A stretch of 64,000 nt of DNA from the NCBI GenBank assembly GCA_902781745.1, contig CACZKM010000007.1, positions 22,168 through 86,167 on the forward strand, in the 5' to 3' direction. Within the stretch, counting starts at the first letter, position 1, and each line of letters starts with the position of its first letter. The translations under genes were made by a program, and so were the position numbers. This stretch comes from Oscillospiraceae bacterium. GTDB lineage: Bacteria > Bacillota > Clostridia > Oscillospirales > Oscillospiraceae. Below, piece by piece: positions 5,203 to 55,800 of the stretch. Below the pieces are notes generated by a model that ran no database searches, was not told the DNA's origin, and saw only the letters and a list, made by a program, of their open reading frames with translations.

Positions 5203-6399
5203 TTATCGGGCGGACACCAGCTTTTTCAGGCCTCTGGCCAGGCCCTCGATGGTCAGCTGATACATATCCACCACATTGCGGATCATCTCGATGGTCTGCC
5301 AGCCGTAGTCGTACTCCCACATGGACTCCGGGATGGGGTTGAACCACACCATCTTCTCGAACCGGTTGTGGAAGCGGTTGAGCCAGGTCAGGCCGGTCTC
5401 CTTGTTGTACCGGTTGTAGTAGCTGCTGCCCCCGATCCAGGTGAGCTCCGAGGGGGCCATGGAGGCGTCCCCCACCACGATGACCTTGTACTCCCGGCTG
5501 AGGTTGTTGATGACCCACTGGGTCTGGACCGAGTCGCTGTAGACGCACCGGGGGTCGGTGTAGAGCTCGGAGTACCAGCAGTTGTGGAAGTAGTAGATCT
5601 TCAGGTCCTTGAAGTTGTTGGCCTTGTTCACCGCCTGGAAGAGCTGGCTGCACAGCCGGGCGTAGGGGGCCATGGACCCGCCGGAGTCGAAGAGGACCAT
5701 GACCTTGATGTCGTTGGTCCGGGGCCGGTCGAACTCCAGGGAGAGGTAGCCGGCGTTGTTGCAGGTCTCGTCGATGGTCCGGTCCAGGTTGAGCACGTCC
5801 ATGGGCCCGTCCTGGCGGGTGGTCATCTGCCGCAGCCGGCGGAAGGCAAGCTGGAAGGTCCGCTGGTCCAGGACGTTGTCCTCCCGGAAGTCCCGGAACT
5901 TCCGCTCGCCCACCACCTGGAGGGCGTGGCGGTGGCGGCTCTCGCCTCCCACCCGGATGCCCGTGGCGGCGTAGCCCGAGTGGCCCATGGTGGAGGTGCC
6001 CCCGGTGCCGATCCAGTACTGGCCGCCGTCGTGGCGCTCGTGCTGCTCGGCCAGGCGCTCCTCCAGCATCTGGCGGAGCTTCTCCAGGTCGAAGGTGGTC
6101 CGGGCGTCCACCTCGTCCTTGTCGTACTTCTTCATGTTCTTGGGGTCGTGGAGCCAGTCCATGAGCTCCTGGGGGATGTCCTCCATGTGCTGGACGTGCT
6201 CAAAGTAGGTGAGGAAGGCCTCGTCGAACTTGTCGAAGTCGGCCTCGGTCTTCACCAAAATCGCCCGGCTGACGTAGTAGAATTCCAGCAGGCTGTTCCG
6301 GCACAGCCCCCGCTCCAGGGCCTCCATCAGGGAGAGCCACTCGTTGAGGGACACGTCCAGGTCCAGGGCCCGCAGGAGGTAAAAGAAATCGGTAAACAC
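5203..6399 (-). CDS. CoxE-like VWA domain protein
   Basis: A 398-residue cytosolic protein with a helical N-terminal half and a von Willebrand factor A domain in the C-terminal half. The metal site reads DSGGSM instead of the usual DxSxS. It starts with GTG at 6399 after AGGAGA. Immediately upstream is a MoxR ATPase gene (gap 18 bases), the typical partnership in which a MoxR AAA+ ATPase and a VWA protein together act as a chaperone/insertase for a third protein. No obvious client such as a molybdenum or cobalt enzyme is encoded nearby. Family call good; client unknown. Confidence 0.8.
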   Translation of the reverse strand: MFTDFFYLLRALDLDVSLNEWLSLMEALERGLCRNSLLEFYYVSRAILVKTEADFDKFDEAFLTYFEHVQHMEDIPQELMDWLHDPKNMKKYDKDEVDARTTFDLEKLRQMLEERLAEQHERHDGGQYWIGTGGTSTMGHSGYAATGIRVGGESRHRHALQVVGERKFRDFREDNVLDQRTFQLAFRRLRQMTTRQDGPMDVLNLDRTIDETCNNAGYLSLEFDRPRTNDIKVMVLFDSGGSMAPYARLCSQLFQAVNKANNFKDLKIYYFHNCWYSELYTDPRCVYSDSVQTQWVINNLSREYKVIVVGDASMAPSELTWIGGSSYYNRYNKETGLTWLNRFHNRFEKMVWFNPIPESMWEYDYGWQTIEMIRNVVDMYQLTIEGLARGLKKLVSAR

Positions 6400-6417: not shown

Positions 6418-7251
6418 TTACCAGCGGTATCCGTTCTTGGCGCGGTTCTTGGCGTTCTTCACGGCGGTGAGATCTTCCGTCTTCTTCAGCAGGATGCCGG
6501 CGTAGGGCAGCTCCTTTTCGATCTTCTCCGGGTCCACCCCGCCGATGCGCAGGGCCTGGAGCCAGTCCAGCAGCTCGGAGGTGGAGGGCTTCTTCGCCAC
6601 AGTGGGCAGGTCTCGGACCTGGTAGAAGGCCCGCATGGCCATCTCCAGGAGGTGGTCCTCGATGTTGTCGTAGTGGGCGTGGACGATGTCGGTCATCATG
6701 GCCGCGTCGGGGAAGGAGATGTAGTGGAAGATGCACCGGCGGAGGAAGGCGTCGGGGAGCTCCTTTTCCGCGTTGGAGGTGATGATGACGATGGGCCGCT
6801 GCCTGGCGGTGATGGTCTCCTTGGTCTCGGGGATGTAGAACTCCATCTTGTCCAGCTCCCACAGCAGGTCGTTGGGGAACTCCAGGTCGGCCTTGTCGAT
6901 CTCGTCGATGAGGAGGACCACCTGCTTGTCGGCGGAGAAGGCCTCTCCCAGCTTGCCCAGCTTGATGTACTTCTTGATATCGTCCACCCCTTCGCCGCCG
7001 AACTGGCTGTCGTAGAGCCGCTGGACGGTGTCGTAGACGTACAGGCCGTCCTGGGCCTTGGTGGTGGACTTGATGTTCCAGATGATGAGCTCCTTGTCCA
7101 ACGCGTCGCTGATGGCCTGGGCCAGCTGAGTCTTGCCGGTGCCGGGCTCCCCCTTGATGAGCAGGGGCTTTTCCAGGGCGATGGCGATGTTGACGATCCG
7201 CAGCAGGTCGGCGGAGACCACGTAATTGCTGCTGCCTTTGAATTCTTTCAT
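6418..7251 (-). CDS. MoxR family AAA+ ATPase
   Basis: A 277-residue AAA+ ATPase: Walker A GEPGTGKTQ near residue 33, Walker B VVLLIDEIDKAD, sensor 1 in IITSNAEKELP, and an arginine-finger-type FLRRC segment. It belongs to the MoxR group, which forms ring ATPases that work with VWA proteins; the next gene encodes one. The start at 7251 was preferred over an upstream in-frame codon because AAAGGAA precedes it and the family begins here. First gene of the MoxR-VWA-Uma2 unit. Confidence 0.88.
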   Translation of the reverse strand: MKEFKGSSNYVVSADLLRIVNIAIALEKPLLIKGEPGTGKTQLAQAISDALDKELIIWNIKSTTKAQDGLYVYDTVQRLYDSQFGGEGVDDIKKYIKLGKLGEAFSADKQVVLLIDEIDKADLEFPNDLLWELDKMEFYIPETKETITARQRPIVIITSNAEKELPDAFLRRCIFHYISFPDAAMMTDIVHAHYDNIEDHLLEMAMRAFYQVRDLPTVAKKPSTSELLDWLQALRIGGVDPEKIEKELPYAGILLKKTEDLTAVKNAKNRAKNGYRW

Positions 7252-8864: not shown

Positions 8865-10247
8865 TTATACAGTCTGCCCGGACTGGGCGACCTTCATCAT
8901 AATGGCGCACTCGATGCGCTTCTTGAACAGCTTGCAGCCGTACTCGTAGGTGCCGCCGATGTCCCCGCTGGCGTGGTAGGCGTTGGCGGCGCAGCCCCCG
9001 GCGCAGTAGAGCCGGGCCCAGCAGTCCCGGCAGTCGGGGTTGGTCACCACGTTGCACCGGTGGAACCTCTCCCCCAGGGCCGGGTTGGTCACCCCGTCCC
9101 AGACGTTGCCCATGGAGTAGTCCGGGTCGTTGACGAACTGGTGGCAGGGGAAGAGCTCCCCCCAGGGGGTCACCGCCAGGTACTCGGTGCCCGAGCCGCA
9201 GCCCGACATCCGCTTGTGGAGGCAGGGCCCCCCGGCCAGGTCGATCATGTAGTGGTAGAAGGTGAAGGGCCTCCCCTCCCGCTCCCGCCTGAGCATCTCC
9301 TTGGCGAGGATCTCGTACTGGTCGAAGAGCACGGGCAGGTCCTCCTCGGTGAGGGCCCAGGGGTCCCCCGGGGGGCAGACCACCGGCTCCATGCTCAGCT
9401 CGGTGAAGCCCAGGTCGGCCATGTGGAAGATATCCTCGGTAAAGTCCGTGTTGTCGTGGGTGAAGGTCCCCCGCATATAGTAGCTCCGGTCTCCCCGGCG
9501 CTCCACGAACCGTTGGAACTTCGGCACGATGCGGTCGTAGCTGCCGTGGCCGGCAAAGTCCCGGCGGAGCCTGTCGTGGACCTCCTTCCGGCCGTCCAGG
9601 CTGAGGACCACGTTGTGCATCTCCTTGTAGCAGAAGTCGGTGACCTCGTCGTCCAGCAGGACCCCGTTGGTGGTGAGGGTGAACCGGAAGTTCTTGTGGT
9701 GGATGGGCTCCTGGGTCCGGGCGTAGGCCACCAGGTCCTTGACCACCTGCCAGTTCATCAGGGGCTCTCCGCCGAAGAAGTCCACCTCCAGGTTCACCCG
9801 GCTGCCGGAGGAGGCGATGAGGAAGTCCAGGGCCTGCCTGCCCACCTCGAAGGACATGAGGGCCCGGTCCCCGTGGTACTTCCCCTGGCTGGCGAAGCAG
9901 TAGCTACAGTTGAGGTTGCAGGTGTGGGCCACATGGAGGCACATGGCCTTCAGCACGGGCTTGGTGTGCTCGAAGGCCTCCTGCTCCACCTCCGCCCACA
10001 GGTCCCGGGAGAAGAGCTTCCCGGCGTCCTTCAGCTCGTCGATGTCCGCCAGGCAGTCCCGGAGCTCTTTCTCGTCCACGTCGGGCAGGTGGCCGTACTT
10101 GTCCAGCATCCGGGCCACGATCTCGTCCCGGGGGGTGGTCTCGTAGAGGGAGATGACGTCATAGGCCACCTCGTCCACCACATGGACCGCCCCGCTGTAG
10201 ACGTCCAGGACGATGTTGTACCCGTTGAGTTTGTATTGATGGATCAT
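8865..10247 (-). CDS. scfB: Thioether cross-link-forming SCIFF peptide maturase
   Basis: Radical SAM/SPASM enzyme of 460 residues that forms Cys-to-Thr thioether bonds in the SCIFF peptide. The radical SAM cluster motif is CNLNCSYC (C110, C114, C117); the C-terminal SPASM region has many cysteines including CGSGTEY, CHQF, CNVV, CRDC and CAGGC, for auxiliary iron-sulphur clusters. The N terminus (residues 1-90) is the peptide-recognition domain. It lies directly downstream of the scfA gene on the same strand, the usual order. Length and motifs match the family. Confidence 0.95.
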   Translation of the reverse strand: MIHQYKLNGYNIVLDVYSGAVHVVDEVAYDVISLYETTPRDEIVARMLDKYGHLPDVDEKELRDCLADIDELKDAGKLFSRDLWAEVEQEAFEHTKPVLKAMCLHVAHTCNLNCSYCFASQGKYHGDRALMSFEVGRQALDFLIASSGSRVNLEVDFFGGEPLMNWQVVKDLVAYARTQEPIHHKNFRFTLTTNGVLLDDEVTDFCYKEMHNVVLSLDGRKEVHDRLRRDFAGHGSYDRIVPKFQRFVERRGDRSYYMRGTFTHDNTDFTEDIFHMADLGFTELSMEPVVCPPGDPWALTEEDLPVLFDQYEILAKEMLRREREGRPFTFYHYMIDLAGGPCLHKRMSGCGSGTEYLAVTPWGELFPCHQFVNDPDYSMGNVWDGVTNPALGERFHRCNVVTNPDCRDCWARLYCAGGCAANAYHASGDIGGTYEYGCKLFKKRIECAIMMKVAQSGQTV

Positions 10248-17089: not shown

Positions 17090-17360
17090 GATGCAGCGGA
17101 GCCCTCTCCGTCCCTTCCTTTGGCAGCGCGATTTGGACTTAACGTAGCCCTCTCCGCCCCTTCCTTTGGCAGCGCGATATGGACGGAACGTAGCCCTCTC
17201 CGCCCCAGTGCGCGCACTGGGGCACCTCCCCCGGAGGGGGAGGCAAGATTTAGTACAACCCCGCAAAGCAGTACTAACTTGCCTCTCCCTTTGGGAGAGG
17301 TGGCACGGCGAAGCCGTGACGGAGAGGGCTCCGTTGCGCCCTTTTCGCGTTTTCAGAGGA
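17090..17360. repeat. Family A foldback repeat, copy A1
   Basis: Fills the pspA-kinase gap. Two tandem ~50-base units (TTTGGCAGCGCGAT...ACGTAGCCCTCTCCGCCCC) lead into an arm ending GGAGGGGGAGGCAAG, a short spacer, and the reverse-complementary arm GCCTCTCCC...GGCACGGCGAAGCCGTGACGGAGAGGGC. The whole can fold into one long hairpin. Related copies are at 22245, 42705, 50325 and 55430. Confidence 0.8.
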
Positions 17361-22244: not shown

Positions 22245-22572
22245 TGTGACGCAGTCCTCTTCGTCCCTTCCTTTGCCAGCGCGATATGGACTTAACGGAG
22301 CCCTCTCCGCCCCAGTGCGCACTGGGGCGGAGAGGGCTTCTTTGCACCTTCATTTGGCAGCACGATTTGGACGTAACGTAGCCCTCTCAGTCATTTGCTT
22401 CGCAAATGCCAGCTCCCCCGGAGGGGGAGCCAAGATTAGTACAACTCCGCAAAGCAGTACTAACTTGCCTCTCCCTCCGGGAGAGGTGGCACGGCGAAGC
22501 CGTGACGGAGAGGGCTCCGTTGCGCTCTCATCGCGGTTGCAAAGGAGCCAGTGACGGAGAGGGCTCCGCCCG
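22245..22572. repeat. Family A foldback repeat, copy A2
   Basis: Occupies most of the 517-base gap between the hypothetical gene and the peptide cassette. It has the same two arms (GGAGGGGGAGCC... and GCCTCTCCCTCCGGGAGAGG) and the outer unit TGACGGAGAGGGCTCCG repeated. One arm carries the ATTTGCTTCGCAAAT mini-hairpin variant and the other the CGGCGAAGCCG variant. Confidence 0.8.
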
Positions 22573-22623: not shown

Positions 22624-22652
22624 TCGACAGAAAACCACGTTCGTGCTATACT
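22624..22652 (+). promoter_or_regulatory. Promoter of peptide-export cassette
   Basis: TCGACA (22624-22629), 17 bases, TATACT (22647-22652), giving a leader of about 75 bases before the first precursor gene. No operator was recognised. Confidence 0.55.
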
Positions 22653-22732
22653 GTTTTTGTATGACATTCCATCAAGTCCACCGGGGCGGGGCCCGACGGC
22701 GCCCCCTGATCCATAAAAAAGGAGGGTTTCCC

Positions 22733-22987
22733 ATGAGCAATCAACCCAACAGCCTTTCCCCCCTGAACGACCAGGACCTTTCCGCGGTGACAGGCGGCAT
22801 CAATATCGGCGCCGCCGCGACCCCCTCCGTGCAGAAGTACCAGGAGCTGGAGGCCGCCTGGGTCAAACTGGGCTTCGATCAGCACGGCTGGACCCGCCGG
22901 CAGTTGGAAGGCCTGTGCGACGCCTGGGAGGAGGCCGGCTGGCCCGGCACCGCCGAGCAGTGGCTGCGGAAGGTGAAGAACTGGTAA
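22733..22987 (+). CDS. Double-glycine leader peptide precursor (peptide A)
   Basis: An 84-residue precursor with a bacteriocin-type leader: LNDQDLSAVTGG ends in GG at residues 21-22, the usual C39-peptidase cleavage site. The predicted 62-residue mature peptide starts INIGAAATP, is Trp-rich (AAWVKLGF, AWEEAGWPG, EQWLRKVKNW), and has a single Cys, so no intramolecular disulfide. Strong AAAGGAGG ribosome site. It heads a unit with a membrane-fusion protein and a C39 exporter. No modification enzyme is encoded, so the product may be an unmodified class II-like bacteriocin or signal peptide. Confidence 0.75.
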   Translation: MSNQPNSLSPLNDQDLSAVTGGINIGAAATPSVQKYQELEAAWVKLGFDQHGWTRRQLEGLCDAWEEAGWPGTAEQWLRKVKNW

Positions 22988-23033
22988 GCCGGGCCCGCCG
23001 CCGGAACGAATGAGAAGAGAGGAGAGATGCGAC

Positions 23034-23453
23034 ATGGAAGGATCGTCTCTGTTTCGACAATCCAGTATGGACCGCATCCGGTCCCCGGAGCAGCTCAACG
23101 ACTATCTCCGGGTCACCCATCCCGGGGTCTGGGTCCTGCTGGCGGCGGTGGCCGTCCTGCTGGCGGGGCTCCTGATCTGGGGCTGCTTCGCCACCATCGG
23201 CAGCTACGCCCAGGGCACCGCCCGGGTGGAGGACGGGGTGATGACCATCGTCTTCGACGACGACCGCCTGGCCCAGAACGTGGAGGCGGGGATGACCGTC
23301 ACGGTGGGGGCGTCCTCCGCCACGGTCTCCAGCGTGGGGGAGGACGGGGACGGGACCCGGTTCGCCCTGGCCGACACCACCCTGGCGGACGGGACCTATC
23401 AGGCGAAGGTGAGCTATAAGCAGACCCAGGCCATCCGGCTGCTGCTGAACTGA
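23034..23453 (+). CDS. HlyD-like membrane-fusion protein of NHLM-type peptide exporter
   Basis: A 139-residue protein with one membrane helix (about 36-58, VWVLLAAVAVLLAGLLIWG) and a short beta-rich extracytosolic domain. The N-terminal sequence RSPEQLNDYLRVTHP is typical of secretion proteins in NHLM bacteriocin systems, but the protein is much shorter than usual and lacks the long coiled-coil hairpin, as expected for a single-membrane organism. GGAGAG ribosome site. Lies 46 bases after peptide A and 12 bases before the exporter. Confidence 0.7.
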   Translation: MEGSSLFRQSSMDRIRSPEQLNDYLRVTHPGVWVLLAAVAVLLAGLLIWGCFATIGSYAQGTARVEDGVMTIVFDDDRLAQNVEAGMTVTVGASSATVSSVGEDGDGTRFALADTTLADGTYQAKVSYKQTQAIRLLLN

Positions 23454-23465
23454 AGGGGCCGCGGT

Positions 23466-25667
23466 ATGAAGAACGGAACCATCAAACAGCCGGTGCGGAA
23501 GGGCGCGGCCAAGGTCCCGGTGGTCATGCAGATGGAGGCCCTGGAGTGCGGCGCCGCCTGCCTGGCCATGGTCATGGCCTATTACGGGAAGTGGGTGCCC
23601 CTGGAGCAGGTGCGCCTGGACTGCGGCGTCTCCCGGGACGGCTCCAGCGCCAAAAACATCCTTTTGGCCGCCCGGAGCTACGGCTTTGCGGTCCAGGGCT
23701 ACCGCTGCGAGCCGGAGACCCTCCGGGAGCAGATCGCCTTTCCCTGCATCATCCACTGGAATTTCAATCATTTTGTGGTGCTGGACGGCTTCCGGGGGAA
23801 GCACGCCCTGCTCAACGACCCCGCCCGGGGAGAGGTGAAGGTCTCCCTGGAGGAGTTCGACCGGGCCTTCACCGGGGTCTGCCTGGAGCTCACCCCCGGC
23901 CCGGACTTTGCCCCCGGGGGAAAACGGAAGAGCACCGCCGCCTTTGCTCGCCGGCGGCTGACCGGGGCGGGGGGCGCGGTGGCCTTCGTGGCCCTCTCCA
24001 CCGCCATCGGCTCTCTCTTCGGCATCCTGAACCCGGTGTTCTCCCGGTTTTTCCTGGACCGGCTGCTGACGGGGGAGAACCGGGAGCTCCTCACCCCCTT
24101 CCTGGTGCTGCTGCTGGTCCTGGGCTGCGCCCAGATCGCGGCGGCCTGGGTCCAGGCGGTCTATTCCCTGAAGATCAACGGCAAGCTGGCCATCGTGGGC
24201 AGCAGCACCTATATGTGGAAGGTCCTGTCCCTGCCCATGGCCTTCTTCTCCCAGCGGATGGCGGGGGACCTTCTCCAGCGGAAGGAGACCAACGCCGCCA
24301 TCGCCGGGACCCTGGTGAACACCTTCGGCCCCCTGGTCCTCAACACCGCCATGATGGTCTTCTACCTGGCTGTCATGCTGCGGTACAGCGTGCCCCTGAC
24401 CGTCGTGGGCCTGGTCACCATCCTCATCAACCTCCTGGTCTCCCGGCTGATCTCCCGGAAGCGGGTGAACCTCACCCGGGTCCAGATGCGGGACGGGGGC
24501 AAGCTGGCCGCCGCCACGGTCTCGGGGATCCAGATGGTGGAGACCATCAAGTCCAGCGGGGCGGAGACGGGCTTCTTCCGGAAGTGGGCGGGCTACCAGG
24601 CCGCGGTGAACACCGCTGCCGTCCGGTTCGCCCGGCTCAACCAGTACCTGGGGCTGATCCCGGTGCTGGTCAGCGCCCTGGCCAACGCCGTCGTCCTCAT
24701 CCTGGGGGTGTGGCTGGCCATGGAGGGGTCCTTCACCCTGGGCATGATCCTGTCCTTCCAGGGGTTCCTCAGCGCCTTCCTGGCCCCCGCCATGACCCTG
24801 GTCTCCGCGGGGCAGACCATCCAGGAGATGCGCACGGAGATGGAGCGGGTGGAGGACGTGATGGCCTACCCCGCCGACCAACGCCTGTCCGACGAGCCCC
24901 TGTCCGGGGACACGGACTATTCCAAGCTGAAGGGGAACGTGGAGCTCAGACACGTCACCTTCGGCTACTCCCCCCTGGCCGAGCCCCTGATCCGGGACTT
25001 CTCCATGTCCATGAAGACCGGCAGCCGGGTGGCCTTTGTGGGGACCTCCGGCTGCGGCAAGTCCACCCTGATCCGCCTGCTCCTGGGCTTCGAGACCCCG
25101 GAGAAGGGGGCGGTGTACTACGACGGGAAGGACCTGTCCAAGCTGGACCTGCCCTCCCTCCGCCGGCGGATCGGCGCGGTGACCCAGGACGGCGCCCTCT
25201 TCCAGGGGGATATCTACTCCAACATCGTCATCTCCGCCCCCCAGCTCACCCTGGACGAGGCCTGGGCGGCGGCGGAGCTGGCGGGGATCGCCGACGACAT
25301 CCGGGCCATGCCCATGGGGATGCAGACGGTGATCGGCGAGGGCCAGGGGGGCATCTCCGGCGGCCAGAAGCAGCGGCTGATGATCGCCCGGGCGGTGGCC
25401 CCCAAGCCCCGGATCCTTCTCTTTGACGAGGCCACCTCCGCCCTGGACAACAAGACCCAGAAGCAGGTCTCCGACGCCCTGGACAGCCTGGACTGCACCC
25501 GGATCGTGGTGGCCCACCGCCTGTCCACCATCCGCCACTGCGACCGTATCCTGGTGCTGGACAAGGGGAGGATCGTGGAGGACGGGGACTACGAGACCCT
25601 GGTGGCGAAAAACGGCCTGTTTGCCGAGCTGGTGGCCCGGCAGCGGCTGGACGTGCCGGCCTGCTGA
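23466..25667 (+). CDS. Peptidase C39-containing peptide ABC exporter (NHLP type)
   Basis: A 733-residue half-transporter that cuts leaders and exports the peptide. Residues 15-140 form the C39 cysteine peptidase with Q22, C28, H102 and D118 in the expected context (ECGAACL; NFNHFVVLDG; NDPARG). Six membrane helices span about 165-450. The ATPase follows: Walker A GTSGCGKST (from G526), signature ISGGQ in place of LSGGQ, Walker B ILLFDEATSALD and the switch His in VAHRLS. Its natural substrates are likely the GG-leader peptides encoded before and after it. NHLM systems often have a second ABC gene; none is seen here. Confidence 0.92.
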   Translation: MKNGTIKQPVRKGAAKVPVVMQMEALECGAACLAMVMAYYGKWVPLEQVRLDCGVSRDGSSAKNILLAARSYGFAVQGYRCEPETLREQIAFPCIIHWNFNHFVVLDGFRGKHALLNDPARGEVKVSLEEFDRAFTGVCLELTPGPDFAPGGKRKSTAAFARRRLTGAGGAVAFVALSTAIGSLFGILNPVFSRFFLDRLLTGENRELLTPFLVLLLVLGCAQIAAAWVQAVYSLKINGKLAIVGSSTYMWKVLSLPMAFFSQRMAGDLLQRKETNAAIAGTLVNTFGPLVLNTAMMVFYLAVMLRYSVPLTVVGLVTILINLLVSRLISRKRVNLTRVQMRDGGKLAAATVSGIQMVETIKSSGAETGFFRKWAGYQAAVNTAAVRFARLNQYLGLIPVLVSALANAVVLILGVWLAMEGSFTLGMILSFQGFLSAFLAPAMTLVSAGQTIQEMRTEMERVEDVMAYPADQRLSDEPLSGDTDYSKLKGNVELRHVTFGYSPLAEPLIRDFSMSMKTGSRVAFVGTSGCGKSTLIRLLLGFETPEKGAVYYDGKDLSKLDLPSLRRRIGAVTQDGALFQGDIYSNIVISAPQLTLDEAWAAAELAGIADDIRAMPMGMQTVIGEGQGGISGGQKQRLMIARAVAPKPRILLFDEATSALDNKTQKQVSDALDSLDCTRIVVAHRLSTIRHCDRILVLDKGRIVEDGDYETLVAKNGLFAELVARQRLDVPAC

Positions 25668-25749
25668 GGAGGGCCGGGAAAACACAGACCCTTGCGCCGC
25701 GGCCCCGGCCCGGCGTTGGGAATATAGTTTCCGAAAGGAGCGCAGCAAT

Positions 25750-25980
25750 ATGGAAGACATGAAGAAGCTTGCTGAGGAACAGTTGGAAGGCGTCACCGGA
25801 GGAGCTTTCCGTGAGAAGCTGTACGACCCGGCCTTCCAGGCAAAGCTGGCCGGCATGGACGTGAAGGATCTCAAAGCGCTGTTGATCCATATCGACTCCG
25901 CTGATCTCGCGAAATTCCTTGCCGGCCTGAAGGACGAAGCACTGACCGCGAAATTCAAGGCGGCAGGACTTATCTTCTGA
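25750..25980 (+). CDS. Double-glycine leader peptide precursor (peptide B1)
   Basis: A 76-residue precursor with leader MEDMKKLAEEQLEGVTGG (18 residues) and a 58-residue, cysteine-free, Leu/Lys-rich predicted mature peptide beginning AFREKLYDP. The core shows a roughly 12-residue periodicity (DLKALLIHIDSA, DLAKFLAGLKDE, ALTAKF), suggesting an amphipathic helical repeat. AAAGGAG ribosome site. Lies 82 bases downstream of the exporter and is a tandem duplicate of B2, including about 60 bases of upstream DNA. Confidence 0.75.
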   Translation: MEDMKKLAEEQLEGVTGGAFREKLYDPAFQAKLAGMDVKDLKALLIHIDSADLAKFLAGLKDEALTAKFKAAGLIF

Positions 25981-26085
25981 TCGCCGCCCGCAGGCAAGGC
26001 GGGCCCGCGCCCCAAGACACCAGACCCTTGCGCCGCGGGCCTGTCCCGGCGTTTGGAAGCATATTTCCGAAAGGAGCACAGCACG

Positions 26086-26310
26086 ATGGAAGACATGAAG
26101 AAGCTTGCGGAGGAACAGTTGGACGGCGTCACCGGAGGGTGGATCTATGAGAACCTCTACGATCCGGCTTTCCAGGAAAAGCTGCTGGGCGTTAAGGACA
26201 GCGAGCTGAAGACCCTCCTGGGCGGGCTGTCCCAGGACAGTCTCAAGACCCTCCTTGGCGGCATTCAGAACGATGCGCTGCGGGAGAAGCTCCACCCATT
26301 CATCCTCTGA
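26086..26310 (+). CDS. Double-glycine leader peptide precursor (peptide B2)
   Basis: A 74-residue precursor whose leader differs from that of B1 at one residue (ends EEQLDGVTGG). The 56-residue predicted mature peptide starts WIYENLYDPAF and contains an obvious 12-residue repeat, SELKTLLGGLSQ then DSLKTLLGGIQN then DALREKL. No cysteine. AAAGGAG ribosome site within the duplicated upstream block. Last gene of the cassette, followed by a terminator-like hairpin. B1 and B2 could act as a two-peptide pair. Confidence 0.75.
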   Translation: MEDMKKLAEEQLDGVTGGWIYENLYDPAFQEKLLGVKDSELKTLLGGLSQDSLKTLLGGIQNDALREKLHPFIL

Positions 26311-26331
26311 TCCCCGCCGGAAAACCACGGA

Positions 26332-26367
26332 ACAGGCCCTCTCCCCAAGCCGGGAGAGGGCCTGTCC
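26332..26367 (+). terminator. Terminator-like hairpin after peptide cassette
   Basis: Perfect stem ACAGGCCCTCTCCC / GGGAGAGGGCCTGT with a short loop, 20 bases after the B2 stop codon. The T tract is weak (CCTTCT), so efficiency is uncertain. Confidence 0.55.
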
Positions 26368-26506: not shown

Positions 26507-28071
26507 ATGCGCGGCAACAAGGCCACCGAGGGAGAGGCCTCGGTGAAAAACGGCGTTTTGCGGATGGCCTTTGTCATCCTGGCCATTCTGCTGGAGCTGG
26601 GCTTTATCCTGGTCATCGTCCTTCGCTTCAACACCTACGCCCAGTGGATCAGCATCGTCACCCATGTGGCGGGGGCGGTCATCGTCCTGGGCATCTATTC
26701 CCAGCACCGGTCCGCGTCCATCAAGATGCCCTGGATCATCCTGGTGCTCACCGCCCCCATCCTGGGGGTCACCCTCTACCTTCTCATCGGGCTCAACGCC
26801 TCCAGCCGGAGGATGTGGAAGCGCTACCTGGCCGTGGACCGGGAGCTTCTGCCCCTCCTGCCGGCCAACGACGACGTGTCGGCGGAGCTGCGGGACCTCC
26901 ACCCCGGAGCGGGGAACCTGTCGGCCTACATCAAGAAGTATTCCGGCTACCCCCTCTTCCGGGACACGGCGGTGACCTACTACTCCGAGGCCAGCGACGG
27001 CCTGGAGGCCCAACTGGCGGACCTGGCCAAGGCGGAGCGGTTCATCTTCATGGAGTACCACGCCATTGAGGAGAAGGAGTCCTTCGGCCGGATCCGGGAC
27101 GTGCTGGCGGACCGGGCGGCCCACGGGGTGGAGGTCCGGGTCTTCTACGACGACATGGGGAGCATCGGCTTCATCAACACCGACTTTGTCAAGCGGATGG
27201 AGGCCCTGGGCATCCAATGCCGGGTGTTCAACCCCTTCTCCCCGGGGCTGAACCTCTTCCTGAACAACCGGGACCACCGGAAGATCACCGTCATCGACGG
27301 GAAGGTGGGCTATACCGGGGGCTACAACCTGGCCAACGAGTACTTCAACATCGATTCTCCCTACGGCTACTGGAAGGACACCGGCCTCCGTCTGGAGGGC
27401 AACGGGGTGGCGGGCCTCACCGCCGCCTTCCTGGAGATGTGGCACGCCTCCCTGAAAACCGAGGAGGAGGACCGGGACTTTGCCCGGTATCTCCCCCGGA
27501 CGGAGAGCGCTCCCCGGACCGAGGGCTTCGTCCAGCCCTACGCCGACGGCCCCATGGCCCGGGAGCACGTGGCGGAGAACGTCTACATCAGCATGGCGGA
27601 GACCGCCCGGGACTACGCCTGGTTCATCACCCCCTACCTCATCGTTACCGAGGAGCTCATCCACGCCTTCGGCCTGGCGGCCAAGCGGGGGGGGTGGACG
27701 TGCGGATCATCACCCCGGGCATCCCGGACAAGAAGCTCATCTACCAGGTCACCCGGTCCTACTACAACGCCCTGGCCCGGAACGGGGTGCGGATCTACGA
27801 GTACACCCCCGGCTTCTGCCACTGCAAAATGTCCGTGGCCGACGACCTCATGGCCACCTGCGGCACCATCAACCTGGACTACCGCAGCCTGTATCACCAC
27901 TTTGAAAACGGCTGCTGGCTGTGCGGCGGCCAGGTCCCCCTGGACATCAAGGCGGACTTTGCGCGGACCATGGCCCAGTGCCAAGAGGTCACGGAGGAAT
28001 ATGTCACCGGCCGGGGCCAGTTCCTCCGGGCGGGGCAGCTCATCCTCCGCCTGGTGGCCCCCCTGCTGTAA
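26507..28071 (+). pseudogene. cls: Cardiolipin synthase, frameshifted in a G8 run
   Basis: Phospholipase D-type cardiolipin synthase, which joins two phosphatidylglycerols at the membrane. Two N-terminal membrane helices, then the first HKD site HRKITVIDGKVGYTGGYNLAN. The frame runs to the G8 tract at 27687-27694; the rest (VDVRIITPGIPDKKL to LRLVAPLL, including the second site HCKMSVADDLMATCGTINLD) continues in another frame. Nine or six Gs would restore a ~520-residue protein of normal length. The frame break is therefore a sequencing error, a real mutation, or slippage-based phase variation. The second HKD motif reads H-x-K...T-x-N-L-D. AAAGGAGG ribosome site. Confidence 0.85.
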
Positions 28072-42704: not shown

Positions 42705-43085
42705 CTTTCTGTCACGGGCTCCCTTGTTCACGCGATGAGGGCGCGGCGGAGCCCTCTCCGTCACTGGCTCCCTTGTTCACGCGATGAGGACGCAAGCGGA
42801 GCCCTCTCCGCCCCAGTGTGCGCACTGGGGCACCTCTCCCGGAGGGAGAGGCAAGTGGGTGGTACGGCTATCGAAGGGCAGCAGCGACCACGCCCCTTGG
42901 CTCTCCCTCCGGGAGAGCTGGCATTTGCGCAGCAAATGACTGAGAGGGCTCCGTTCAGTCTATCTCGCGTTTACAAAGGAGATGACTGAGAGGGCTCCGT
43001 GCAGTCCATCTCGCGCTGGCAGATGAAGGCACAGCGGAGCCCTCTCCGTCCCGGGGACAGAGAGGGCTCCGTTCAGTCCATCTTG
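42705..43085. repeat. Family A foldback repeat, copy A3
   Basis: Fills most of the 520-base gap upstream of gpx. Left outer units (GGAGCCCTCTCCGTCAC and variants, repeated) and right outer units (TGACTGAGAGGGCTCCG, repeated) flank GGAGGGAGAGGCAAG and a CTCTCCCTCCGGGAGAGC arm; the whole is an interrupted inverted repeat. Confidence 0.8.
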
Positions 43086-50324: not shown

Positions 50325-50690
50325 ACGCGATATGGACTTAACGGAGCCCTCTCCGTCACGGCTTCGCCGTGCCACCTCTCCCGGAGGGAGAGGCAAGAGT
50401 AGTACAGCTTTGCGAGGCTGTACTAACCTCCTTGGCTCCCCCTCCGGGGGAGCTGGCATTTGCGAAGCAAATGACTGAGAGGGCTCCGTTGCGCTCTCAT
50501 CGCGGTAACAAGGGAGCCAGTGACGGAGAGGGCTCCGTTGCGCTTTCATCGCGTGAACAAGGGAGCCAGTGACGGAGGGGGCTCCGTTGCGCTCTCATCG
50601 CGGTAACAAGGGAGCCGATAACGGAGAGGGCTCCGTTGCAGTTTGATCGCGTTTGCAAGGAAGCCGGTAACGGGAGTGTGATTTGCCTGC
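50325..50690. repeat. Family A foldback repeat, copy A4, with tandem units
   Basis: An inverted-repeat core (CCGTGCCACCTCTCCC... and CCTCCGGGGGAGCTGG) is followed by about four tandem ~49-base units of the form GAGAGGGCTCCGTTGCG-CT(C/T)TCATCGCG...ACAAGGGAGCC. Fills the 517-base gap before the permease gene. Spacing and sequence do not fit CRISPR. Confidence 0.8.
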
Positions 50691-55429: not shown

Positions 55430-55800
55430 TTTATTCGCGGGATATAGACGGAACGGAGCCTTGTCAGTGGCTTCCATAGCAATCGCGAGATAAACGGAAC
55501 GGAGCCCTCTTCGCCCCATCCTTTGGCAGCGCGATATGGACAGAACGTAGCCCTCTCCGCCCCAGTGTGCGCACTGGGGCACCTCTCCCTCTGGGAGTCA
55601 AACTGTCCGGGGGACAGTTTGATAAGATAAAGCGAAGCAACCACAGAAAATGTGGCACGGCGAAGCCGTGACGGAGAGGGCTCCGTTACGCTCTCATCGC
55701 GGCAGCAAAGGAGCCGTGACGGAGAGGGCTCCGTTACGCTCTCATCGCGGCAGCAAAGGAGCCAGTGACGGAGAGGGCTCCGCTGCGCTTTCATCGCCTT
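55430..55800. repeat. Family A foldback repeat, copy A5, with hairpin C6 embedded
   Basis: The outer units and arms are as in other A copies, but the usual inner arm is replaced from about 55596 by family C hairpin C6 (55600-55620; arms AAACTGTCC/GGACAGTTT), followed by GATAAGATAAAGCGAAGC. Three tandem GACGGAGAGGGCTCCG units follow. Together with the feo leader it fills the 640-base gap 55383-56022. Confidence 0.8.

Follow-up and report, generated by a model that had tools for sequence, protein, structure and literature searches.

Single-gene, peptidase-containing ATP-binding cassette (ABC) transporters (PCATs) with a small protein cargo are a known kind of export system. PCAT1 of Clostridium thermocellum is described as a homodimer, and its cargo CtA comprises a 24-residue leader and a 66-residue cargo part (PMC6959990). 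LahT, an ABC transporter maturation and secretion (AMS)/PCAT protein of Lachnospiraceae C6A11, has precursors with Nif11-type leaders; LahT150 is reported to cut short class II leaders too, and hydrophobic residues at positions -4, -7, and -12 mattered in substrate mutants (PMC6363468). The NHLM/NHLP export system is presented as a three-gene set, termed Trans-Fuse (TIGR03794), Trans-Cleave (TIGR03796), and Trans (TIGR03797) (Haft 2010, PMC2887384). The present analysis concerns a five-gene export cassette at positions 22624-26367 of a stretch of 64,000 nucleotides (hereafter the window) from an Oscillospiraceae bacterium (GCA_902781745.1, contig CACZKM010000007.1, positions 22,168 to 86,167 of the forward strand).

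The cassette, known from its genes alone, shares with PCAT1/CtA a single C39 peptidase-ABC gene, a short double-glycine (GG) leader, a small protein cargo, and the domain order. The two exporters are only distantly related (C39 domain against the PCAT-type bacteriocin transporter 4ry2, which we take to be PCAT1, E 2.8e-16), and we know of no hybrid origin for PCAT1. The closest solved C39 domain is the protease 6mpz, presumably that of LahT (E 8.4e-69); the alignment retains C28, H102, and D118, the intact catalytic set that the initial annotation of this DNA had listed. Leaders of the cassette count 18-22 residues, unlike the Nif11-type leaders of LahT precursors (PMC6363468). The exporter descends from the NHLM system, and the N-terminus of a short HlyD-like protein matches TIGR03794. 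Unlike NHLM/NHLP, the second transporter (TIGR03797, here ABC2) is gone and its ATPase is fused to the peptidase-bearing one (TIGR03796, here ABC1), the HlyD-like protein has one third of the model length, and the leaders are not of the NHLP/Nif11 type.

By sequence identity, the exporter is thus a hybrid of ABC1 peptidase and membrane domains with an ABC2 ATPase from the Walker A motif on. We favour, at a probability of about 0.62, a reading in which three small helical proteins (A, B1, and B2) are produced by the cassette, trimmed, and exported without modification, the exporter having arisen by a deletion between ABC1 and ABC2 and working as a homodimer. The initial annotation had treated short leaders without a modification enzyme as unusual and overlooked that the exporter is a hybrid and that ABC2 is missing. 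What surprises is the fusion in the exporter, together with its seemingly orphan cargoes, not the absent enzyme.

Hybrid make-up of the exporter

The exporter gene and its parts are as follows.

23466-25667, + strand: hybrid C39 peptidase-ABC exporter, 733 amino acids, with C28, H102, and D118
23466-25047, + strand: ABC1-derived part (C39 peptidase, membrane domain, start of the ATPase), assigned by identity to ABC1s
25048-25069, + strand: exporter junction at Walker A (P-loop), a string of 22 nucleotides
25070-25667, + strand: ABC2-derived part, the remaining ATPase domain (ISGGQ, ILLFDEATSALD, and VAHR), assigned by identity to ABC2s

As the initial annotation had proposed, the exporter is NHLM-like: it matches TIGR03796 (NHLM_micro_ABC1) at E 6.6e-239. 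The score of 794.8 bits lies under the curated cut-off of 853.3, likely on account of the ABC2-type ATPase; TIGR03797 scores 518.8 bits. Up to residue 528, mean identity is 74% (71-77) to 30 close ABC1s and 21% to ABC2s. From residue 538 it is 85% (81-88) to 28 close ABC2s and 42% to ABC1s; the change-over is located in Walker A. Comparisons of the relatives with one another span both values (69-99% among ABC1s, 81-99% among ABC2s). Among the 260 positions that the close clade conserves, the hybrid deviates at 47; the ATPase region accounts for 46 of these, and just 1 falls among the 141 that precede the ATPase. In a leave-one-out control, relatives showed a median of 1 deviation and a next highest value of 6, with one outlier at 22 (L067). 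Typing of the ATPase with two profiles gave -195 bits for the hybrid and +56 or more for 125 other exporters. A quick tree built from 126 distinct exporters places the window's exporter in a clade of 34 (Shimodaira-Hasegawa-like approximate likelihood ratio test, SH-aLRT, 95) on a branch of 0.73 against a median of 0.16; the tree was built on the whole chain, so that the swapped domain affects the placement, and it is because of this swap that the branch is long.

The occurrence of ABC2 was followed through 134 exporter loci, consisting of the best 80 of 579 confirmed contig loci, 53 exporter stretches, and the window itself, some contigs having been fetched twice. The 53 stretches were obtained by searching 400 genomes of the family; 49 of these matched, the source genome included. 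ABC2 lies downstream of the exporter in 128 of the 134 loci. Three of the other six end too soon, one (L147) reads both transporters as one open reading frame (ORF), and two, L039 and the window, are without ABC2. L039 carries an ABC1-type ATPase (+97 bits) and is a different case from the hybrid. In L147, from position 5802 onward on the minus strand, ABC1 and ABC2 of genome G179 form one open frame of 1472 residues, a fusion of another kind. A sample of the order held the exporter in 27 of 365 genomes; the 25 loci examined there comprise the window, one that could not be typed (L202), and 23 of ABC1 type with adjoining ABC2-like sequence. The hybrid build was thus found neither among the 125 other exporters typed in the first set nor among these 23, one of which (L216) repeats a genome of the first set. 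Within the genus, 2 of 16 genomes match TIGR03797 at E<=1e-120, namely the source genome, through the hybrid, and G015. The source assembly holds no separate ABC2, and a query with the 500 N-terminal residues of ABC2 finds only the hybrid itself, at 25% identity.

These counts bear on the possibility that the organism has a normal ABC1 and ABC2 and that the assembler jumped across a P-loop repeat. The assembly is a draft of 95 contigs at 89% completeness, relatives share a P-loop string of up to 22 nucleotides between the two genes, and a gene about 2 kb past the exporter shows a frame break at a G-run. Such a jump should leave the N-terminal half of ABC2 and a TIGR03797 match on another contig, and neither occurs elsewhere in the assembly. 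Assemblers as a rule break off at words considerably longer than 22 nucleotides, and none of the other typed exporters in either set shows the same jump. An assembly error at the junction is therefore unlikely, and we give this explanation little credence.

Loss of ABC2 would also be expected if a deletion had damaged an NHLM exporter and the cassette were now decaying. Relatives have STAS, response-regulator, and dipeptidase genes near their exporters, none of which was detected within the 20 kb surrounding the cassette, and the long branch of 0.73 would also fit decay. The swapped domain accounts for that branch, and conservation ahead of the ATPase is almost complete; moreover, the reading frames are open, peptidase and ATPase both have their catalytic motifs, and B1/B2 have been duplicated with their leader kept. 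Decay is accordingly regarded as improbable.

Proposed origin and mode of action

With the C39 peptidase (Cys/His/Asp), the ABC membrane domain, and the ATPase in one chain and GG-leader precursors adjoining it, the exporter shows the sequence features of a PCAT. It is best read as a single-gene PCAT that, like PCAT1 with CtA, would cleave and export its cargo, here three small helical proteins without modification. A tandem of ABC1 (peptidase, permease, and ATPase) and ABC2 (permease and ATPase) would have lost the DNA between their Walker A loops. A deletion from P-loop to P-loop would keep the frame and remove ABC2 without displacing the genes behind it; many relatives have a GG precursor after ABC2.

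Strings shared by ABC1 and ABC2 were compared in 29 relatives. Ten rows (46-385 nucleotides) were dropped, as they came from overlapping stop-to-stop frames, and one gave no result, leaving 18 usable relatives. The longest common string is the P-loop, at 13-22 nucleotides, in nine of them, and another ATPase motif or a chance match of 12-24 nucleotides in the other nine. The 22-nucleotide string at 25048-25069 is itself the longest one shared by ABC1 and ABC2 in L018.

In the proposed mechanism, the hybrid would work as a homodimer, like PCAT1. The C39 domain would bind the leader via the hydrophobic residues at -12, -7, and -4 and cut after GG, and ATP would drive the cores of 56-62 residues out. 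The HlyD-like protein may serve as a membrane-anchored accessory, which would suit a cell without an outer membrane. Outside, the cores would probably act at the cell surface or on neighbours. Cleavage and export by the cassette are likely on grounds of homology.

Precursors and further parts of the cassette

The remaining features stand in a row with the exporter, and all parts that the initial annotation had described were recovered where it had placed them.

22624-22652, + strand: sigma-70-type promoter-like site, TCGACA-17-TATACT with TG before the -10 element, 10 of 12 matches, by consensus only
22733-22987, + strand: precursor A, 84 amino acids; 22-residue GG leader (SAVTGG) and 62-residue core, predicted mostly helical
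23034-23453, + strand: short HlyD-like protein, 139 amino acids; an in-frame ATG at 23010 is an alternative start
25686-25749, + strand: 5' segment of B1, a near-copy of that of B2
25750-25980, + strand: precursor B1, 76 amino acids; 18-residue GG leader (EGVTGG) and 58-residue core
26022-26085, + strand: 5' segment of B2, a near-copy of that of B1
26086-26310, + strand: precursor B2, 74 amino acids; 18-residue GG leader (DGVTGG) and 56-residue core with a 12-residue repeat
26330-26367, no strand assigned: hairpin of 16 pairs, reported by the scan on the minus strand only and without a clear T-run on the plus strand

The unit contains these five genes only. Promoter-like sites of the given quality number 2 in the 4.4 kb scanned, compared with a mean of 0.3 in shuffled sequence. 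The closing hairpin is present, as the initial annotation had it; its role as a terminator is uncertain, given the plus strand's lack of a T-run. The HlyD-like protein matches TIGR03794 at positions 1-49 of 421 only (E 3.8e-6; 26.1 of 156.2 bits, under the cut-off). This short form is general in the exporter loci, with 110 hits of 137-167 amino acids at 60 bits or more, the window included and some contigs counted twice.

A search of both strands of the window for a Shine-Dalgarno sequence, an ATG, and a short ORF with a GG leader carrying hydrophobic residues at -12, -7, and -4 singled out exactly A, B1, and B2 and gave no hit in any of 60 Markov-1 controls; the motif was fixed after the leaders and the LahT150 work were known, so that this is a test of consistency, not a blind one. 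All three leaders have hydrophobic residues at these positions.

B1 and B2 are duplicates. They are 53% identical over 76 columns, and their 5' segments are near-identical. Nucleotide differences amount to 3 of 54 in the leader and 70 of 168 in the core. Rates after NG86, used as YN00 failed for the core, are 0.02 nonsynonymous (dN) and 0.22 synonymous (dS) for the leader, and dN 0.56 and dS 0.79 for the core. Exported GG peptides usually look like this, with a conserved leader and a fast-changing core. The GC content of B1 (0.55) and B2 (0.58) is below that of the exporter (0.68). A periodicity of 12 residues is clear in B2 (0 of 2000 shuffles). B1 shows it weakly, with p 0.035 for 12 residues and 0.37 when all periods are considered, and A does not show it. 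Folded singly, the 5' segments of B1 and B2 gave no clear common structure. Two Rfam matches over 22-27 kb, far under the gathering score, were rejected.

None of the three precursors reaches the cut-off of any Pfam or NCBIfam family, and PADLOC and PHROGs give no match at all, which agrees with the initial view that B1 and B2 are unlike known bacteriocins. Sub-cut-off matches were obtained for B2 (L_biotic_typeA, 14.2 of 21.7 bits; XyeA, 17.3 of 33; CTB bacteriocin, 16.0 of 32) and for B1 (CTB bacteriocin, 13.9 of 32). No NHLP or Nif11 leader was detected on A, B1, or B2 at E<=1 in Pfam and NCBIfam. No modification enzyme is found among the five unit genes with the same libraries, and no candidate immunity gene was recognised within 22733-26310, although immunity proteins can be unrecognisable or encoded elsewhere; in these respects, and in the short GG leaders, the initial annotation holds.

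Two readings were rejected. A lanthipeptide or another modified, ribosomally synthesised and post-translationally modified peptide (RiPP) would need an enzyme, which is not in the unit, and Ser, Thr, and Cys are few, together 2-5 per core. A strict NHLP/Nif11 system fails on four features: the TIGR03796 cut-off, a separate TIGR03797 protein, the TIGR03794 cut-off, and an NHLP/Nif11 leader.

A cassette for class II (unmodified) bacteriocins, in which A, B1, and B2 would be antimicrobial and B1 and B2 perhaps a two-peptide pair, would be compatible with the hybrid exporter. GG leaders with a dedicated C39 exporter are in keeping with it, as is the contrast in dN between B1/B2 leader and core, and such candidates are said to be common in gut genomes, Clostridia included (commentary, PMC12648078). 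The lack of a recognisable immunity gene in the unit and of any bacteriocin family above its cut-off in Pfam and NCBIfam argue against it, as do the wall-binding modules that make up many cargoes of the exporter's clade (see below). A cationic core is typical of class II bacteriocins. The net charges here (A -1, B1 +1, B2 -2) do not favour a classical cationic bacteriocin as judged by sequence, and the cores are without GxxxG. Calculated masses of the three unmodified cores are near 7126, 6323, and 6343 Da. We consider the bacteriocin reading rather unlikely, though it deserves attention, and retain that of exported unmodified helical proteins.

Sequence searches suggest that the cargoes are nearly orphan. 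B1/B2 were not found beyond the source genome (B1 in 99 relatives; a B1/B2 profile in 394 genomes of the order and viral contigs; B1 in plasmids and phages), and A had no match outside that genome in 400 genomes of the family, plasmids, and viral contigs. Two relatives of A were identified, one about 4 kb from an exporter in opposite orientation (L063) and one with no exporter within the surrounding 16 kb (L188). When 297 genomes around that of L063 were searched, the strong matches were two, the genome of L063 itself (E 1e-37) and G934 (E 1e-24). Four further matches at E 0.015-0.05 were dropped as chance. The structure model of A, from 3 sequences, has three main core helices (mean predicted local distance difference test, pLDDT, 68), and that of B1 has short helices (mean pLDDT 68). 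Foldseek returned a single match for A (E 9.9) and, for B1, 92 matches at E<=10 and none at 0.001, the best being the MgtE cytosolic domain (E 1.3). Profiles of A and B against PDB sequences gave nothing below E 0.38.

Several points weigh against the favoured reading. A mis-join at the P-loop repeat, though unlikely, would undo its hybrid part, as the junction is known from one assembly, and the P-loop is not the sole possible crossover point, given the nine relatives in which another string is longest. Cargo and product are known from genes alone, and both structure models, built from 2-3 sequences, matched no solved fold significantly. The proposed function outside the cell draws on the cargoes of related exporters, which belong to families other than A and B. 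The initial annotation had held that its proposal would fall if the precursors were not conserved beside homologous exporters in relatives. In part this is the case: B1/B2 were not found beside any homologous exporter, having no relatives with which conservation alongside the exporter could be demonstrated, and for A one of two relatives lies near an exporter.

Genomic setting and cargoes of related exporters

Upstream of the cassette lie MurB and a gene of 199 amino acids, which occur together in 10 of 10 genus stretches fetched; the latter is present in 13 of 16 genus genomes. None of the cassette genes turned up in these stretches, the exception being a 27% match of the ATPase to an unrelated transporter in L175; three of the stretches end within about 2 kb of the 199-amino-acid gene and say little about the DNA beyond it. 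The junction looks variable, with the cassette either gained there or a lone survivor. Directly after it follows a cardiolipin synthase-like gene (26507-28071, + strand), in which the frame is lost close to a G-run at about 27.69 kb, through either a sequencing error or a real break. A dispersed intergenic repeat with inverted parts, its units about 49 nucleotides apart in places, is located at 17098-17332, 22297-22567, 42748-43070, 50343-50634, and 55501-55781, one block being immediately to the left of the cassette promoter. With one mismatch allowed, GGAGAGGGCTCC is present 28 times in the window, where 1.85 occurrences would be expected. The RiPP-type enzyme among the neighbours scanned is a SCIFF radical SAM maturase (8868-10247, - strand; TIGR03974, 749.7 bits, cut-off 425), which lies about 12 kb from the cassette and is probably unrelated to it.

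The window's exporter belongs to a clade of rumen and gut Oscillospiraceae and their kin (33 loci), whose members share with it the short HlyD-like protein and mostly short GG leaders and whose exporters are 63-68% identical to it over the best segment (L005-L030). Unlike the window, these members keep ABC2 and carry LysM, CW_7, and beta-rich cargoes; no relative of A or B was seen there. GG-leader candidates near exporters were picked by a regular expression, on which the counts depend. A Pfam scan of 90 of the 136 distinct candidates gave 22 with LysM, 11 with CW_7, 10 with a Nif11 domain, and 1 with bacterial SH3, along with a few zinc ribbons; in NCBIfam, 21 of these 90 match the Nif11 leader model. 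In the window's clade, 22 of 33 loci yield 49 candidates, 20 in a LysM cluster and 12 in a CW_7 cluster, these 32 with leaders of 16-24 residues; some of the remaining ones, e.g. the one of L019, look doubtful. Leaders count at most 30 residues in 40 of the 49 and 51-70 in the other nine. Many cargoes of the clade thus look, by their domains, like small wall-binding proteins. The source genome has five LysM matches, and no GG leader was seen there in a passing look with one protein displayed.

In 10 clade loci, 45 of 120 ORFs of at least 220 amino acids were scanned, nearly all on the exporter's strand. Their 23 Pfam families include response regulators, histidine kinases, SpoIIE phosphatases, and D-Ala-D-Ala dipeptidases; Pfam domains of LanM, YcaO, or radical SAM enzymes were not found in these 45 ORFs within the stretches examined. 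Absence of a modification enzyme therefore looks, from these sequences, like a trait of the clade, and what the initial annotation had singled out, i.e. short leaders without an enzyme, is present and, together with the short HlyD-like protein, ordinary among these exporters.

Several further observations concern these relatives. L005, L010, L014, L028, and others have a D-Ala-D-Ala dipeptidase and STAS/SpoIIE-type regulators near the exporter, hinting at a cell-wall-linked control. One family of small GG-leader proteins near exporters (L042 3902-4204, L046 1347-1652, L061 1055-1354) resembles bacterial SH3 by eye and is a possible third wall-binding type. L034, L040, L049, L057, and L071 hold arrays of GG-leader proteins (up to six in a row, in L057), mostly with long leaders and with several CxxC pairs in their cores, which look like exported zinc ribbons rather than modified peptides. 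Neither GG-leader LysM/CW_7 cargoes nor an ABC1/ABC2 fusion was found described in the literature searched by titles and opening abstract lines.

Taken together, we lean somewhat towards the view that a deletion at Walker A made a two-transporter NHLM exporter into a single working PCAT, and that the clade is not a RiPP exporter. It would instead serve monoderm gut Clostridia as a leader-peptide, probably Sec-independent route by which small folded modules without modification are secreted (LysM, CW_7, SH3-like, and, in the window, orphan helical proteins). Provided that the junction is genuine, it constitutes a natural domain swap that tests whether NHLM ABC1 and ABC2 act as a pair (heterodimer) or apart, and which ATPase suits the membrane domain that carries the peptidase. 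Judging by the wider clade, small wall-binding proteins may also leave cells by way of GG leaders and C39 exporters; many gut genes may therefore be mislabelled by tools that score each GG-leader gene next to a C39 exporter as a RiPP or bacteriocin.

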